From positions 176,577-240,576 of the forward strand of contig NZ_JQKI01000005.1 in the NCBI RefSeq assembly GCF_000745965.1: DNA of 64,000 bases. The letters are read 5' to 3'. Positions 4,911-36,056 of this stretch are shown in pieces. A program made the position numbers and the translations under genes. The notes under the pieces were generated by a model. That model ran no database searches. It was not told the origin of the DNA and saw only the letters and a program-made list of their open reading frames with translations. The DNA comes from Edaphobacter aggregans DSM 19364 (GTDB taxonomy: Bacteria; Acidobacteriota; Terriglobia; Terriglobales; Acidobacteriaceae). Position 1 is the first letter of the stretch. The number at the start of each line of letters is the position of its first letter.

Positions 4911-7400
4911 TCAGTCGACGACGCGGCCGAGCGCGAGGACCGTGTGCGGCTGGCGCGGGTGGGGTAGTCCGCGGAAGAGGACTGCCGCGATTGCCGCGAT
5001 TGCCGCAATGCACAGCAGCGGGAGAGGATAGCCGAATCGCGCAAAGGCGCCTCCGGCGAGCATGGCCGCAAGCGCCTGTGAGGCCGACATCACCAGATTG
5101 TTCGACGCGGCTGCGCCTTCGCGCTGGTCCTTCGGGACGCGGTCCATCAGGAGGCTGTAGAGGCCGGGCTCGTTCATCCACTGGAAGGCGGTGAAGGCCA
5201 TGTAGCCGAGCGCGGCGGCAAGCGGACTGTGAATCGCCGCGAGCACGCAGAGGAACGCCGCTGCGGCGAGCTGGGTGCAGACGATGCCGTTGACCAGTCC
5301 CAGGCGCCGGAAGAGCAGTGGAGCCGCGAGGACGGCGACAACCTGCGTGATCTGCGAAGCCGAGAAGGCGTTGCCGATCTGCGGCAGCGGCATGTGCATG
5401 TGCTCGGCGAAGTAGACGTTGGCGAACGGGCTGAACGAGCCGGTGACGAGTCCCCACACCGCGATGGCGGGAAGATAGCGAAGAAGGAATGGCGACAGGA
5501 AGGAGGGCTTCGCCTGTGCGGGCACAGCGTTGGCCCGCTCGAAGGTGAGCCGCGATGCGGGCCAGAGTCCTACGGCGACGAGAGCGCAGGAGAGCAGAAG
5601 CACGAGGCGCAGAGGATCGGCGGAGTGCAGCGCGGAGCCAGGGATCGTGTGCTGCGCGAGCCATCCGGGAAGCCTGCCTCCGACGAAGCCGCCGAGCGCG
5701 GCGACGCCGATGCCGAGCGCGAAGACGAGCGAGAAGGCGGAGGGACGCTGGCGCTCAGAGGTCATCCGCGCGACCGCGGGCGAGAGACAGACGGCCCAGG
5801 TGGAGAGTGTGAGTCCGGAGAGGAACGCGAGCGCCAGCTGCATGGGCAGGGCCAGCAGTAGCGCTCGTGCTGAGAAGACAAGGACAGCGAGAAGAAATGC
5901 TGCAAGCAGTGCAGTGCGCAGGCCGAATCGCCGCGCAAACCTTCCGGCGGGAATGGCGCCGGTAAAGCTGCCGGCCGCCATCGCGCTGGCGATCAGGCCC
6001 AGAGTCTTTTCGGTGTAGCCGTGGCCGATGAGAAAGAGATTGAAGAGAAAGAAGTAGATGGAGAGGCCGAGGTCGAAGAAGAACGACGCCCCAAGAAAGA
6101 CCCAGAAGCGGCGCTCCAGACGGTGCCGCGAGAGTCGCCACCGGATGCCGCGTGCGAGCGTCGACGCGTCCATGCGCAAGTGAGCAAGGCCGCGCGAAGC
6201 GAGATACGAGAGATAGCGGCCATACCGATGCACGCCCTTCCGATCGACCAGCTTTTTGTCCCACGCTACCACCCGATACGAACTCAGGCGTGTCGTGATC
6301 TGCGGGAGAAAGGAGCGCCGGAGCAGAGCCAGCTTCTTCTTCGGCTCGTCAAGCAGTGTGAGGTGCAGCCACACCGAGTCCTTGTTGGGGCCGAACATGC
6401 CTTCGAAGGCCGACCAGGTAAAGTGCGACAGCCACTCCGTCTGCTCCTGTGGCAGCGCCGCAATCTCGTCCTCCACCACGGGATGCAGATCGCATCGAAA
6501 CCACGCCGCCGCGTGAAAGAAGGCGATCGCCTCCTTCGCGCGCAGCGATGCGGAGTGCATGGCCTTCCAGCTCTCCCAGAAGGCGTCGTCGCCGGCGTGC
6601 GCGTCGAGAAAGGTGGCCAGCTCGTAGACGTGATGCACGATGCGATCCTGCAGCAGCAGGTTGCGCGCGATGTGAAGCGCAAGGTGTCCCAGGTGATCGG
6701 CGGGGCTGAGCGCGGAGAACTCGAGTCCGTCGAGGACGCGGCGCGTCCGTCGCGCGAAGAACCTCTCCGTCTCCGGAAGGGCAAGCAGCGATACAGGCTC
6801 GTTCCACAGGCAGTAGTGCAGCTCGATGGAGAGAGGCATCGTGGGATCGAAGTGGTTTCCCTGCCACCGCCAGTCTCCGAGGCGGATCATCGTGGGCGAG
6901 TGGTCGGCATTGCGGGTATCCGTCTGCTGATCGGGTCGATAGCCGATGGCCTCGAGCGCGGACTGCGCGAGCGCCATCTGCTCCGCACGACAAACGAAGT
7001 CGAGATCGGACTGCTGTCGCAGCCGGGGGTCGGCGACGTACTCCGGGGCCTGCGTGAATCCTTTGATGACGATGTGCTCGACACCGGCCTCGTCCAGCGC
7101 GTAGGCGGCCTCGCGGTAGGTGGCCTTGACGCGCTCGAACCGCAGCGCGTTGTCGGTGGTGTTCCGCTCGAGCTGCTCGGCCACCCACGCGGGGGCTCCG
7201 TCCACCCGGAGCTGTGCCAGTGGAAACGTGAGGTGCGCGAGCTCGCAGAACTGGAGCAGAGAGCGCCACTCGCTATCGGACAGGCTTCGCAGGCTCTCGG
7301 TCTCTGCTCCGCGAAACTGCAGCGCGGCAAGAAGCGCGGCGACCTCGCGCGGGACTCGCGCGGCAAGCGCTTCGTGCGTGCTGGGATAAGGCTTCGACAA
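4911..7400 (-). CDS. Nucleotidyltransferase-MFS transporter fusion
   Basis: 829 residues in one frame. Residues 1 to about 400 match the NTP_transf_5 type of nucleotidyltransferase-fold protein: VEHIVIKGFTQAPEY (K113-G114) and RLRQQSDLDFVC (D132, D134) are the expected nucleotide/metal-binding motifs, followed by a helical region. From about 430 (RFWVFLGASFFFDLGLSIYF) to the end is a major facilitator with about 12 TM helices; the cytoplasmic motif appears as RFARRFGLRT. The TTG start at 7400 has AAGG 7 bases upstream and lies 4 bases after the kinase-like gene stop. Proteins of the N-terminal family often accompany HPr-kinase-like proteins in RiPP/lasso-peptide loci; that same pairing is seen here, but no precursor peptide, PqqD or B protein is visible. 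Substrate unknown. Confidence 0.82.
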   Translation of the reverse strand: MSKPYPSTHEALAARVPREVAALLAALQFRGAETESLRSLSDSEWRSLLQFCELAHLTFPLAQLRVDGAPAWVAEQLERNTTDNALRFERVKATYREAAYALDEAGVEHIVIKGFTQAPEYVADPRLRQQSDLDFVCRAEQMALAQSALEAIGYRPDQQTDTRNADHSPTMIRLGDWRWQGNHFDPTMPLSIELHYCLWNEPVSLLALPETERFFARRTRRVLDGLEFSALSPADHLGHLALHIARNLLLQDRIVHHVYELATFLDAHAGDDAFWESWKAMHSASLRAKEAIAFFHAAAWFRCDLHPVVEDEIAALPQEQTEWLSHFTWSAFEGMFGPNKDSVWLHLTLLDEPKKKLALLRRSFLPQITTRLSSYRVVAWDKKLVDRKGVHRYGRYLSYLASRGLAHLRMDASTLARGIRWRLSRHRLERRFWVFLGASFFFDLGLSIYFFLFNLFLIGHGYTEKTLGLIASAMAAGSFTGAIPAGRFARRFGLRTALLAAFLLAVLVFSARALLLALPMQLALAFLSGLTLSTWAVCLSPAVARMTSERQRPSAFSLVFALGIGVAALGGFVGGRLPGWLAQHTIPGSALHSADPLRLVLLLSCALVAVGLWPASRLTFERANAVPAQAKPSFLSPFLLRYLPAIAVWGLVTGSFSPFANVYFAEHMHMPLPQIGNAFSASQITQVVAVLAAPLLFRRLGLVNGIVCTQLAAAAFLCVLAAIHSPLAAALGYMAFTAFQWMNEPGLYSLLMDRVPKDQREGAAASNNLVMSASQALAAMLAGGAFARFGYPLPLLCIAAIAAIAAVLFRGLPHPRQPHTVLALGRVVD

Positions 7401-7404
7401 AAGA

Positions 7405-8466
7405 CTACCTTCTCGTTAGCGCAAGCTCTTCCAGCCGTTCGACGGCCCAGTCGAGATCGGTGTAGCGCAGCTCAAAGACCTGGACGCCGACGAGGTTCCT
7501 CACCACGGCCTCGTGGTCGGCTGCGCCTGCACTCAGCAACGACGTCTGCAGAAACCAGCGCAACGCGGCCTCGCGAGAGAACGGATGAAGGCCCGGTGTC
7601 GCGGCGTTACGGCGATTGAGGAAGACGATGTACTCCACGCGTGTCGAATCGCTTGTGGTCAGCTCGGGAAACTCAAGCGTGGAGACTTCAATGGAGGGTT
7701 TGCCTGCGGCGCGCGGCGTGATGGAGCGGCCCTCGAGCTCGGGAAAGAGCTGAACACCGGAGTCGCGGAAGCGAATCTGATGCGAGTTTCCGACGACGAG
7801 GCGGTCGTCGCGATCGAGCGGAAGATAGCTGGCGTCGTCGCTGATGTAGGTCCAGCCGGAGCGTGCGCCGGCAAAGGCGAGCGACGATTTCCCGGCGCCG
7901 GAGTCGCCGCAGAGCAGCATGCCGCGCCCATAGGGAGCGACGCAGGCCGCATGCAGCGCCGTCGCGCGCAGCGTGGAGAGCATCCCCAGGACCGCGGCCT
8001 CCAGAAAGTGATAGCGCAGATAGAGCGGCGATTCGGCGGTGGCACGCGTGACCCATCCGAAGGCGAAGCCGCGCCTGAGATCGCAGGCGATGAAGTTGCG
8101 CGGGTCGGCCACGATGGTCAACAGGTGCTCGCGCACACGGCATACAGGAGTAGGCGGGTCGGCTGTATCGGACTCATCTTCGGCGACGCCGAGCTCGAGC
8201 CGCAGCGGAGGGTGATCGAACTGCGGGCGAAACATGCGCCAGCTCTGTTCGGCGGCGGCAAGCACGGCCGCGGAGTTGGTTGTAATCTCGACGGGAAAGC
8301 CCAGAGGGAAGAACGTGGCACGCAGCGGCAGATCTGCATTCGAAAGGACTGGATTCGAGAGGACCGGATTCGAAAGGATCGGGTTCGTTCCCGGTGTCTC
8401 GGCCCGGGCGATCAGGCTGGCTTTTGCATCCTGCATGGACATGCTTCCTTGAGTGGAGGGGCTCAT
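7405..8466 (-). CDS. HPr kinase/phosphorylase-like (HprK-like) protein
   Basis: 353 residues from the chosen start. The C-terminal half has the HprK-type fold: ATALHAACVAPYGRG, then Walker A GDSGAGKSS (about 187-195), then TYISDDASYL, and later GKPSIEV and VEYIVFLNRR. This resembles the stand-alone serine-kinase-like proteins found beside NTP_transf_5 genes, not a sugar-PTS HPr kinase; no PTS gene is near. The start is ATG 8466, overlapping the preceding stop as TAATG. An internal ATG at 8442 with AAGGA upstream is an alternative. A longer frame to 8751 only shadows the cytochrome gene. Residues 28-43 are a three-fold NP(I/V)LS repeat encoded by a 15-bp tandem repeat. Confidence 0.82.
   Translation of the reverse strand: MSPSTQGSMSMQDAKASLIARAETPGTNPILSNPVLSNPVLSNADLPLRATFFPLGFPVEITTNSAAVLAAAEQSWRMFRPQFDHPPLRLELGVAEDESDTADPPTPVCRVREHLLTIVADPRNFIACDLRRGFAFGWVTRATAESPLYLRYHFLEAAVLGMLSTLRATALHAACVAPYGRGMLLCGDSGAGKSSLAFAGARSGWTYISDDASYLPLDRDDRLVVGNSHQIRFRDSGVQLFPELEGRSITPRAAGKPSIEVSTLEFPELTTSDSTRVEYIVFLNRRNAATPGLHPFSREAALRWFLQTSLLSAGAADHEAVVRNLVGVQVFELRYTDLDWAVERLEELALTRR
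8339..8383 (+). repeat. 15-bp tandem repeat x3 inside the HprK-like gene
   Basis: Units TTCGAAAGGACTGGA, TTCGAGAGGACCGGA and TTCGAAAGGATCGGG. On the coding (minus) strand they give an in-frame NPILS-NPVLS-NPVLS linker. Copy-number change would preserve frame. Confidence 0.9.
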
Positions 8467-30338: not shown

Positions 30339-30602
30339 CTAGTCGTGATGCCTCTGTAGAGCGCGCATCACATCGATGATCCGCTCATACACATCGACGA
30401 TCTCGACATCCGACAACGGCCCGGGATTCGCGCGGCGGACGTGATCGAAGACGTCCTTCTCGCGCTGCGGCTCATACACCGGAAGGTTGGCCTTCTGCTT
30501 GAGCTCGCCGATAGCCCGCGCGGCCGCCGCCCGCTGGTTGATAAGGCGAACAATCTGTTCGTCCAGCTCATCGATCTTCCGCCGCCAGTCAGCAATCTCC
30601 AT
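30339..30602 (-). CDS. aroQ: Monofunctional chorismate mutase (AroQ type)
   Basis: 87 residues, all-helical AroQ fold: WRRKIDELDEQIVRLINQRA, then REKDVFDHVRRANPGPLSD and YERIIDVMRALQRH. It converts chorismate to prephenate, feeding TyrA two genes downstream. ATG 30602 is chosen because GAGGA lies about 7 bases upstream and the family starts here; the frame is open much further upstream through non-coding repeat sequence. It lies 191 bp after trpA, a gap filled by a dispersed repeat. Confidence 0.93.
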   Translation of the reverse strand: MEIADWRRKIDELDEQIVRLINQRAAAARAIGELKQKANLPVYEPQREKDVFDHVRRANPGPLSDVEIVDVYERIIDVMRALQRHHD

Positions 30603-30793: not shown

Positions 30794-31945
30794 TCATGCG
30801 CGCAACCCCGCAACAAACCTGCCCACCGCAGCAGCCGCCTGCTCTGGAGCGGTCTTCTCGATCAACTGCACAATCGCCGAGCCGACAACAGCCGCATCGG
30901 CAAACTCACCCACAGCCTTCACGTGCTCGGGAGTAGAGATGCCGAAGCCCACCGCAACCGGCAGCTTCGTGAACTGTCGCAGCCGCCCTACTAACTCAGC
31001 CGCATCACCCGCAACGTTTTGCTGCGTTCCCGTAATTCCTAAGCGCGAGATCGCATAGACAAAACCCTCGGACGCTGCAGCAATCGCCTTCAACCGCGCA
31101 TCCGTGCTCGTCGGTGCCGCCAGAAACACCGGAGCCAGCCCGTTCGCATGCATCGCCCACAGATACTCACCAGCTTCTTCGACGATCATGTCCGTCAACA
31201 GAACGCCGTCGACTCCGGCATCCGCCGCAGCCGCACAAAAGCTCTGCATGCCGGCTACAGGCTCAAGCAAAATCGGCCTGGCTTTGCGCGCCGCCTCCTT
31301 GAAGGCCATGGAACCAGCAATCTTGAACGCCATCTCGTTGGAGTCGATTTCGTGATAGCTCGCATCCTTGAGCGAGACTTTGATATCGACCATCTCGTTT
31401 CCAGCGAGGACGCCTCCCTTCATCGCTTCCTGGATTCCTTCGTTGATTGCCCTGATGTATTCCTCAGGAATCGTGCCTGCTTTGATGTCGCTCGAGAACT
31501 CATATCCCTTTCCCGACCGGTTCGGCTCGATGCGAATGTCTGCATGACCAAAGTTGCCCTTCCCACCAGTCTGTCTTACATATCTGCCTTTTCCCTCAGC
31601 AGCCGTTATAATCGTTTCGCGATAATTCGCCTTCAACTTACCCATCCGAATAACCGGATTCAGGTAAGAAAAGAGAACTAAGCCGCAGGTAGGCCGAGCC
31701 TTGCGAAGCTCCTTCGCCACCTCAAGCACATCCGTCAGCCGCACACCCTTTGCCACCGCACGCTCACTCGCACGCTGAATCACCGGCCCATCGGCCAGCG
31801 GATCGCTGAACGGCACGCCAAGCTCAATCACATCCGCGCCGTTATCTATAGCGGCCAGCGCAATATCGCGCGTCGTTGCAAGATCAGGATCACCCGCGGT
31901 GAGGTAAACCACAATTCCCGGCTTCTTCTTGAACTCAATCGCCAT
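30794..31945 (-). CDS. trpA: Tryptophan synthase alpha chain with an internal EF-G domain IV insertion
   Basis: 383 residues, about 128 more than a normal TrpA. Residues 1-102 and 232-383 are an ordinary TrpA TIM barrel: VIELGVPFSDPLADGPVIQ keeps the catalytic Glu and Asp (E. coli Glu49/Asp60 equivalents), and SRLGITG, VAVGFGIST and VVGSAIVQLIE are the phosphate-binding segments. Between SYLNPVIRMG and SFCAAAADAGVDGV lies residues 103 to about 231, a whole EF-G domain IV. The frame is uninterrupted. The gene lies 10 bp after trpB. The enzyme should cleave indole-3-glycerol phosphate to indole; whether the inserted domain allows TrpB docking is unknown. Confidence 0.93.
   Translation of the reverse strand: MAIEFKKKPGIVVYLTAGDPDLATTRDIALAAIDNGADVIELGVPFSDPLADGPVIQRASERAVAKGVRLTDVLEVAKELRKARPTCGLVLFSYLNPVIRMGKLKANYRETIITAAEGKGRYVRQTGGKGNFGHADIRIEPNRSGKGYEFSSDIKAGTIPEEYIRAINEGIQEAMKGGVLAGNEMVDIKVSLKDASYHEIDSNEMAFKIAGSMAFKEAARKARPILLEPVAGMQSFCAAAADAGVDGVLLTDMIVEEAGEYLWAMHANGLAPVFLAAPTSTDARLKAIAAASEGFVYAISRLGITGTQQNVAGDAAELVGRLRQFTKLPVAVGFGISTPEHVKAVGEFADAAVVGSAIVQLIEKTAPEQAAAAVGRFVAGLRA
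31253..31639 (-). other. In-frame EF-G domain IV segment inside trpA
   Basis: Encodes about 128 residues with EF-G domain IV landmarks in order: ANYRETI, YVRQTGGKGNFGHADIRIEP (with the conserved tip His), GYEFSSDIKAGTIPEEYI, GIQEAMKGGVLAG, VDIKVSLKDASYHEIDS, NEMAFKIAGSMAFKEAAR and PILLEPV. It ends where EF-G domain V would begin. My hand count over 31261-31620 is 190 G+C of 360 (53%), against 153 of 240 (64%) in sampled trpA flanks (30841-30900, 31681-31860). Codons such as AGA and ATA appear here. Confidence 0.93.
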
Positions 31946-31955
31946 CTCTCTCGAC

Positions 31956-33257
31956 TTAGCCTTTCGCTGACTCGCTGACTTGCTGACTTGCTGACTCGCT
32001 TCCCTTCAGGCTCAACTCCCGCGAAAGAATCCCCATATCCTTATCCCCGCGCCCCGAAAGATTCACCATCAGCACATCCTTCTTCCCCATCGTCGGAGCC
32101 AGCCGAATCGCCTCCGCCACCGCATGCGCGCTCTCGAGCGCCGGAAGAATCCCCTCTGTCCGCGCCAGCGTGACGGTCGCCTTCAAAGCATCCGCATCCG
32201 TGCACGACGTATACGTCGCGCGCCCCGAGTCATGCAACATCGCATGCTCCGGCCCTACACTCGCGTAGTCCAGTCCCGCCGACACCGAGTGCGTCGCCGC
32301 AATCTGCCCCGCGTCATCCTGCAACACGTAGCTGTACGTCCCCTGCAGCACACCCGGAATGCCGCCGCCAATCTTCATGAAGCGCGCCGCATGTTCTCCC
32401 AGCGCCGTCCCACGCCCACCGGCCTCGACACCGATCAGCTGCACATTCGCATCGTTCAGAAACTCGTAGAACGCTCCAATCGCATTCGACCCACCACCCA
32501 CACACGCAACCACGGCAGTCGGCAGCTTGCCCTCATGCTCCATGATCTGCCGCTTCGCCTCCTTGCTGATGACGCGATGAAAGTCGCGCACCATCGTCGG
32601 GTAAGGATGCGCCCCCAGCGCCGAGCCCAGGATGTAGAACGTCGTCCGCACATTCGTCACCCAGTCGCGCATCGCCTCGGAGATCGCATCCTTCAACGTC
32701 GCCGAGCCCGCGCTCACGCCGCGCACCTCCGCGCCCAGCAGCCGCATTCGGTAGACGTTCAGCTCCTGACGGCGCATGTCCTCCTCGCCCATGTAGACCA
32801 CGCACTCCATGCCCAGCAGAGCGCACACCGTCGCGGTCGCCACGCCATGCTGTCCCGCGCCCGTCTCGGCGATGATGCGCTGCTTGCCCATGCGCCGCGC
32901 CAGCAGCCCCTGCCCCAGCGCGTTGTTGATCTTGTGCGCCCCCGTGTGCAGCAGGTCCTCGCGCTTCAGATAGATCTTCGCGCCGCCCAGTTGCTCGCTC
33001 AGCCGCTTCGCAAAGTACAGCGGAGTAGGCCGCCCGCAATAATCCTTCAGCAGCCCCGCCAGCTCCGCCTGAAACGCCTCGTCCTTCTGGGCCTCCGCGT
33101 ACGCCGCCTCCAGCTCCTCGAGCGCGGCCATCAGCGTCTCCGGCACATATCGCCCGCCGTACGCCCCGAACCGCCCCGCCCCCGACCGTAACGGGCCTGC
33201 CGGACTCACCATCGCCGCCGTCGTTCCACCTGTTGCCCCGCCTGTCGCCGTGCCCAT
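31956..33257 (-). CDS. trpB: Tryptophan synthase beta chain
   Basis: 433 residues, PLP fold type [21 protein letters not shown] opens the conserved core; [19 protein letters not shown] carries the PLP lysine; [15 protein letters not shown] is the substrate loop; [12 protein letters not shown] binds PLP phosphate; the C-terminal core ends in [12 protein letters not shown]. It condenses indole with serine. ATG 33257 is preferred (AGGAG 5-6 bases upstream) over an in-frame TTG at 33281. The Gly/Thr-rich N-terminal extension (about 25 residues) and the [14 protein letters not shown] tail are extra to the family; the tail is encoded by an 8-bp tandem repeat. First structural gene after the attenuator. 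Confidence 0.96.
31967..31998 (+). repeat. 8-bp tandem repeat x4 at the trpB 3' end
   Basis: CTGACTCG, CTGACTTG, CTGACTTG, CTGACTCG, inside the last 15 codons of trpB. The unit is not a multiple of three, so loss or gain of one unit would change the TrpB C-terminus and shift its stop relative to the trpA start 10 bases downstream. Confidence 0.9.
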
Positions 33258-33279
33258 ATCCGCTCCTGCGCTCAACCCC

Positions 33280-33410
33280 AAAAAGCAAAAACCGCAACCT
33301 TGTCGGTCGCGGCTCGTGTGGATGTCGAATCTTGTCTGAACTTCAGCTTATTCAGCTAATCCCTCAGAAGACCCTACTCCGCCGGAGCCGCTACCGGATA
33401 CCAGTAGCGG
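33280..33410 (-). promoter_or_regulatory. Transcription attenuator upstream of trpB
   Basis: On the minus strand, in transcript order: segments 1 and 2 CCGCTAC (33410-33404) and GTAGCGG (33394-33388) form a hairpin overlapping the leader peptide Tyr/Trp codons. Segment 2 extended, GGTAGCGGCTC (33395-33385), is complementary at 10 of 11 bases to segment 3 GAGCCGCGACC (33315-33305). Segment 3 CCGCGACC (33312-33305) pairs over 8 bp (one G-U) with segment 4 GGTTGCGG (33299-33292), followed by TTTTTGCTTTTT (33291-33280). The terminator ends 22 bases before the trpB ATG. This is the mutually exclusive anti-/terminator layout of translation-coupled attenuation. Confidence 0.88.
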
Positions 33411-35915: not shown

Positions 35916-36056
35916 TCAGTCCACCCGCGACCGGCCCCAGCTGAACCGCTTCGCAAAGTACAGCGGAGTAGGCCGCCCGGAATAATCCTTCAACAGCCCC
36001 GCCAGCTCAGCCTGGAACGCCGCGTCGTCCTTCGCCTGCGCATAAGCAGAAATCAT
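35916..36056 (-). pseudogene. Chimeric mini-ORF: trpB fragment joined to the tail of the 38062 barrel gene
   Basis: A 46-codon open frame (ATG 36056 to TGA 35916). Its first part, [20 protein letters not shown] then [12 protein letters not shown], copies TrpB; its end, FSWGRSRVD, copies the C-terminus of the protein encoded at 38062-38859. At DNA level 35946-35979 is identical to 33003-33036 (34 nt) and 35918-35948 is identical to 38064-38094 (31 nt), meeting at a shared CCG. It is a rearrangement scar; function is not expected. Confidence 0.85.

Follow-up and report, generated by a model that had tools for sequence, protein, structure and literature searches.

Why does a gene for the alpha subunit of tryptophan synthase (TrpA) carry a piece of elongation factor G (EF-G), and is its product still a TrpA? 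This question is raised by the trpA gene in a stretch of 64,000 nucleotides from Edaphobacter aggregans DSM 19364, which we call the window. The gene occupies 30794..31945 on the minus strand, from the ATG at 31945 to the stop codon at 30794-30796, and its 383 codons contain zero internal stops. The N-terminal TrpA part (residues 1-102, 31640..31945, minus strand) comprises the first three barrel strands, and the C-terminal part (residues 232-383, 30797..31252, minus strand) runs from helix 3 onward. Between them lies a complete, contiguous EF-G domain IV (residues 103-231, 31253..31639, minus strand). Pfam and structure matches support all three parts, and the AlphaFold2 model supports the two TrpA parts as well. 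This 129-residue domain, most likely derived from an Acidobacteriaceae fusA gene, interrupts TrpA at the position that corresponds to residue 110 of the Salmonella alpha chain. We consider it probable that the domain is a folded passenger in a barrel predicted to be intact and was spread between trpA genes by recombination.

The first-pass annotation, made from the sequence alone, had described the single frame, with the insert at these same residues, and had named the insert as EF-G domain IV cut near the domain limits. Both points are borne out by the frame and by searches with hidden Markov models. In the Pfam scan, Trp_syntA (PF00290) was matched in two pieces with 261 bits against a cut-off of 27, and EFG_IV (E = 3.6e-40) covered residues 107-222, corresponding to profile positions 4-120 of 121. 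The NCBIfam trpA model (TIGR00262) scored 252 bits against a cut-off of 102, which identifies the protein as a TrpA. Residues 100-233 align to residues 475-608 of the solved EF-G 1dar. Position 110 of the solved TrpA 5ey5 is the counterpart of residue 102 as well as of residue 232, so the two TrpA pieces join at one glycine of normal TrpA; residue 232 also aligns to position 110 of Salmonella TrpA. Plain relatives read, for example, NPVVRMGMKTFC, and the chimera has NPVIRMG, then the insert, then GMQSFC. Both Pfam families were found in every one of the 32 sequences of alignment A1, which places the architecture beyond chance. The GTPase domain and EF-G domains II, III and V were not found in the Pfam scan of the chimera at E 1, thus the chimera is not an EF-G. 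A tetracycline ribosomal protection protein was rejected, with a best NCBIfam score of 46 bits against a cut-off of 775. Pfam and NCBIfam searches at E 1 found no intein or endonuclease family and no Hedgehog/intein splicing domain in the chimera. It is confirmed that the trpA gene really encodes a TrpA interrupted by EF-G domain IV.

The window assembly consists of 345 contigs with 7.2% contamination, which could point to an assembly artefact. However, this architecture recurs across many separate data sets as well as in a named, cultured strain, and an artefact is refuted in practice. A dead gene fits poorly with the open frame, the single copy and the conserved catalytic residues, and we give these two explanations together almost no chance. 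The first-pass annotation had also named a second normal trpA as a finding that would overturn its claim, and none was found in the source genome.

The N-terminal part holds E41 and D52, the equivalents of catalytic E49 and D60, and N96, the equivalent of interface residue Asn104. We matched the numbering of these residues, and of I99 with Phe107, ourselves. E41 and D52 are invariant in alignment A2 (46 sequences), in agreement with the earlier claim that the catalytic acids are present, and N96, P97 and V98 are invariant as well. The insert comes directly after G102, six residues past N96 and three past I99. Asn104 and Phe107 are described as TrpA residues at the alpha-beta interface (PMC8187860). 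To that extent, the insert does lie near the TrpB interface, as first proposed.

In the AlphaFold2 model (mean predicted local distance difference test score, pLDDT, 87.3; predicted template modelling score 0.68), the eight-stranded barrel is complete, as in the TrpA fold. The modelled barrel superposes on TrpA 1wdw_E, the best structural match, over 246 residues at 1.5 Å. The matches listed in the fold search, for which the query was the whole chimera, are TrpAs, with no EF-G structures among them. The strands and helices of the insert are modelled with block means of 78-97 (residues 111-230), and the model is weaker at the first joint, where the blocks of residues 91-110 score 74 and 63. In the model of the Bryocella chimera (84.2), the elements follow in the same order, with one short helix and strand in addition. 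Both domains are predicted to fold, the insert as a knob set apart on a TrpA that is otherwise normal.

The position of the insert beside the TrpB docking loop allows another explanation, namely that it alters alpha-beta affinity or indole channelling and was kept for that reason. The short distances from N96 and I99 and the lower predicted confidence at the first joint are consistent with such remodelling. In addition, the TrpBs of the two hosts share the uncommon residues M247 and S424 among 99 TrpB rows, which include some pairs of loci from one genome. However, N96, P97 and V98 are invariant, and M247 and S424 each also occur in 4 of the 97 other TrpB rows, from loci with a plain trpA. The altered TrpA-TrpB docking suggested by the first-pass annotation therefore gains little from these residues, and we regard an adaptive change of the interface as improbable.

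Where did the insert come from? Every insert (32 of 32) finds its best EF-G match in a fusA product of the family, at 43-78% identity, and the window insert shares 66-75% identity with ten of the family's fusA domains. The fusA genes of the window's genus carry GSGNYGH and DSNEMAF in 6 of 6 sampled; the N of the first motif is found in 94% of inserts, and 19 of 32 inserts have the second. From these matches and common motifs, the donor is most likely an Acidobacteriaceae fusA. A stand-alone open reading frame (ORF) of 376 residues in genome G033 (L170:2736-3866, minus strand) has EF-G domains III, IV and V, and no GTPase domain was found in it with Pfam. This type of protein was rejected as the donor, as its long branch falls with EF-G, away from the inserts.

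The scattered hosts, the several joints and the acceptance of other inserts by the same loop could suggest that fusA domain IV was captured several times at one hot spot. In 9 of the 207 proteins readable at this loop (4 of 211 were unreadable and excluded), we found unrelated short inserts of 7-24 residues each (P0125, P0129, P0132, P0146, P0151, P0159, P0189, P0202 and P0208). However, one branch separates 26 inserts from 17 family EF-Gs in a careful tree of 43 rows (99/97, 200/200 bootstraps, i.e. 100%), and 32 inserts are likewise split from 59 EF-G domains in a quick tree of 91 rows (support 96). The careful trees used a subset of plain and EF-G rows picked by us (26 plain TrpAs, 17 EF-Gs), and the near copies P0005, P0006, P0013, P0015 and P0016 and the partial P0028 were left out. 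Bryocella and P0031 have sister inserts (support 100/100), and their hosts are not sisters. Repeated capture is therefore very unlikely in our view.

The first-pass annotation had seen a lower GC content in the insert. The insert is indeed lower, with 52.2%, whereas the two TrpA parts have 57.8% and 61.6% and the whole window 62.4%; the 64% given for the flanks does not match these values and may have been sampled elsewhere. Third-position GC of the window gene shows no drop (62.8 in the insert against 61.8 and 66.4 in the TrpA parts), so the low GC of this gene's insert comes from amino-acid content and does not point to foreign DNA. In Bryocella, the third-position GC of the insert is 51.5 against 84.2 and 79.0 in the flanks.

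The chimera is rare but not confined to the window. At least 32 clusters with both domains, window included, were found among the best 120 of 8000 scored in the protein search, which makes the count a lower bound; the frame is intact in 31 full or nearly full clusters, window included. Among the 80 loci kept of 240 confirmed in named genomes, one chimera was found, in Bryocella elongata DSM 22489. At E 1e-85, the chimera was found in 2 of 398 genomes of the family, 1 of 62 of the window's genus and 1 of 28 of Bryocella's genus, and an order-wide search with P0030 as query gave 2 of 249; the hits of these genome searches are the window genome, G252 (taken as Bryocella), or both. A search with the Bryocella insert returned its own record and P0031 only (2 of 1024 candidates). 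The public record of Bryocella elongata TrpA (P0121, nr, 251 residues) starts inside the EF-G insert and loses the N-terminal half of TrpA, and this wrong start hides the chimera in public annotation. No chimera was found in viral contigs (none of 45 pattern matches was a relative), in phages (0 of 33 matching records reach 80% coverage) or in plasmids (2 of 376 reach 80%). The two plasmid matches are two pieces over ~750 bases, too short to contain the insert. TrpAs in longer open frames of G064, G075, G111 and G138 showed no insert, and L049, L030 and L112, flagged by one alignment, have frames of just 258-273 residues and are plain TrpAs.

The distribution of the insert among trpA genes suggests movement. 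In the TrpA trees, chimeras are spread over several branches, next to plain TrpAs (Bryocella with P0122-P0124, P0031 with L174, P0024 with L068 and P0030 with L069), and a single clade of chimera hosts was rejected by the approximately unbiased (AU) test (p 1.2e-5). Bryocella is the clearest case of insert movement. Its flanks equal plain P0122 at 243 of 253 residues, the third-position GC of its insert is well below that of the flanks as given above, the host motif NPVVRIGMDAF stands 3' of the insert, and the sister relationship of its insert with that of P0031 is not followed by the hosts (p 0.0015). Loss is also seen. P0032 and P0033 have a short head joined to KEAARKA, and P0034 retains 11 extra residues. 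The flanks of P0032-P0034 are 95.5-96.4% and 98.8% identical to full chimeras, against ~89% to the best plain TrpA compared. They represent two types of in-frame deletion in close relatives.

These observations can be accommodated by a single capture of part of fusA at the loop that leads from barrel strand 3 to helix 3. This loop would tolerate a change of length, and the ends of the insert would be near each other so that the barrel still closes. Homologous recombination among trpA alleles would then have carried the insert to other lineages and deleted it from some. The inserted domain would no longer work on the ribosome, and its frame and fold would be retained since the downstream part of TrpA depends on them. 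The idea of the first-pass annotation that an acquired domain IV is tolerated inside TrpA is supported.

Several results weigh against an idle, recombining passenger. The AU tests on host trees were done after a first tree had been viewed. Insert and flank identities are correlated over 435 pairs (r 0.87, without P0028 and P0048), which indicates that much of the descent was joint. An old single gain with many clean losses may account for branches other than Bryocella, and an insert swap between P0009 and P0018, suggested by identity, was not significant (AU p 0.195). Against fusA domains (10 of the 11 picked, L124 dropped), the window insert has a proportion of nonsynonymous differences (pN) of 0.15-0.22 and of synonymous differences (pS) of 0.66-0.84, which indicates protein-level constraint, although the ratio is not firm because synonymous divergence is almost saturated and some of the path belongs to fusA. 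Subject to these two limits, the constraint exceeds the strict need of an idle passenger. The two loops that we call tip loops, GGKGNFGH (I, residues 127-134) and DASYHEIDSNE (II, residues 194-204), have conservation values of 0.88 and 0.72 in 22 shallow inserts (L170 and L172 not counted), and the insert may have a function in this group. In the ten deepest inserts, the values are 0.63 and 0.65 against 0.82 at hydrophobic and 0.79 at Gly/Pro positions, but the measure is harsher where EF-G permits few letters (1.5-1.9 at the tips and 1.8 at Gly/Pro, against 2.7-3.9 at hydrophobic and polar positions).

We read this pattern as likely reflecting selection for folding, while the ribosome tip is slowly being lost. 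The Bryocella insert is much looser (pN 0.37-0.39, pS saturated), and the deepest insert pairs are down to 33-45% identity. The retention of the insert to this depth, the intact frame in 31 clusters, the low pN/pS relative to fusA and the mostly retained tip loop I in shallow inserts would agree with co-option of the domain for a new role of TrpA, for example ribosome tethering of tryptophan synthase or RNA binding. However, the tip residues are the least conserved class in the deep inserts, two deletion types remove the domain in close relatives, no clear matching change is seen in TrpB, and the chimera is rare in both genera. Co-option is thus unlikely, though less so than interface remodelling, and the link to the ribosome envisaged by the first-pass annotation is disfavoured by the tip decay and the deletions.

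The trpB gene (31956..33281, minus strand), the only full-length trpB found in the genome, is 10 bases upstream of trpA. The next gene downstream (30339..30602, minus strand) is presumably a chorismate mutase, and a presumed 3-deoxy-D-arabino-heptulosonate 7-phosphate synthase gene is also downstream. In Bryocella, too, the chorismate mutase gene comes after trpA, separated from it by one small additional ORF. A trpB fragment of 87 bp (35940-36026, minus strand), 92% identical to the window trpB, lies ~2.7 kb upstream of it. The region between holds what we take to be a cupin gene and a gene of the LysR type, and it resembles a cassette whose insertion caused a partial duplication. In Bryocella (L033), small ORFs at 5647-6000 and 7188-7628 (third-position GC 60 and 65%) are on either side of the chimeric trpA, and the second presumably resembles an immunity protein. 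In a Terriglobus metagenome-assembled genome (MAG), the trpB-trpA gap (L101:2697-3437) has an apparent degenerate trpA start fragment and two small ORFs, which we take to resemble a toxin-antitoxin pair. By its span L101 seemed a longer chimera, and it is a plain trpA with this fragment upstream. L044, L087 and L102 are Acidobacteriaceae-like trpBA genes on MAG contigs labelled Rhodanobacteraceae or Verrucomicrobia, probably by wrong binning or naming.

A domain that probes the ribosome is thus found next to the docking loop of a textbook bienzyme, where it provides a natural means to study how the alpha and beta subunits of tryptophan synthase communicate. The data include trpA without the insert as well as full, deleted and newly received forms, so domain entry, fold tolerance and the passage from passenger to function can be tested directly. 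If the domain is a tolerated passenger, it would show how a large foreign domain lodges in a conserved enzyme. Domains nested in enzymes are a known phenomenon. A search of the open-access literature, covering few subscription papers and no preprints, found no description of a TrpA/EF-G domain IV architecture or its like.

Compared with TrpA (PF00290, TIGR00262), the chimera has the same modelled barrel, the same catalytic acids and a single copy beside trpB, and it differs in the foreign domain of 129 residues that separates strand 3 from helix 3. Compared with EF-G, its insert is the whole contiguous domain IV (PF03764), whereas domains I-III and V are absent in the Pfam scan and the tip loops decay in deep members. 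The C-terminal helix of EF-G, which packs on domain IV there, is not part of the insert. The L170 ORF shares EFG_IV and the GNYGH and DSN motifs with the insert, but it is a separate gene, 52% identical to the insert, and groups with EF-G. Inteins are likewise sporadic in-frame inserts at one site of a conserved gene with apparent spread among relatives, whereas the chimera has no sign of splicing and its insert derives from a host gene. We tentatively suggest that a fragment of the host's own fusA may behave as an intein-like passenger without splicing, a stably folding domain that enters, spreads among and leaves alleles of a conserved biosynthetic gene through recombination, each time at the same site and without breaking the frame. 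If so, its persistence would rest on folding competence and not on a catalytic trick.
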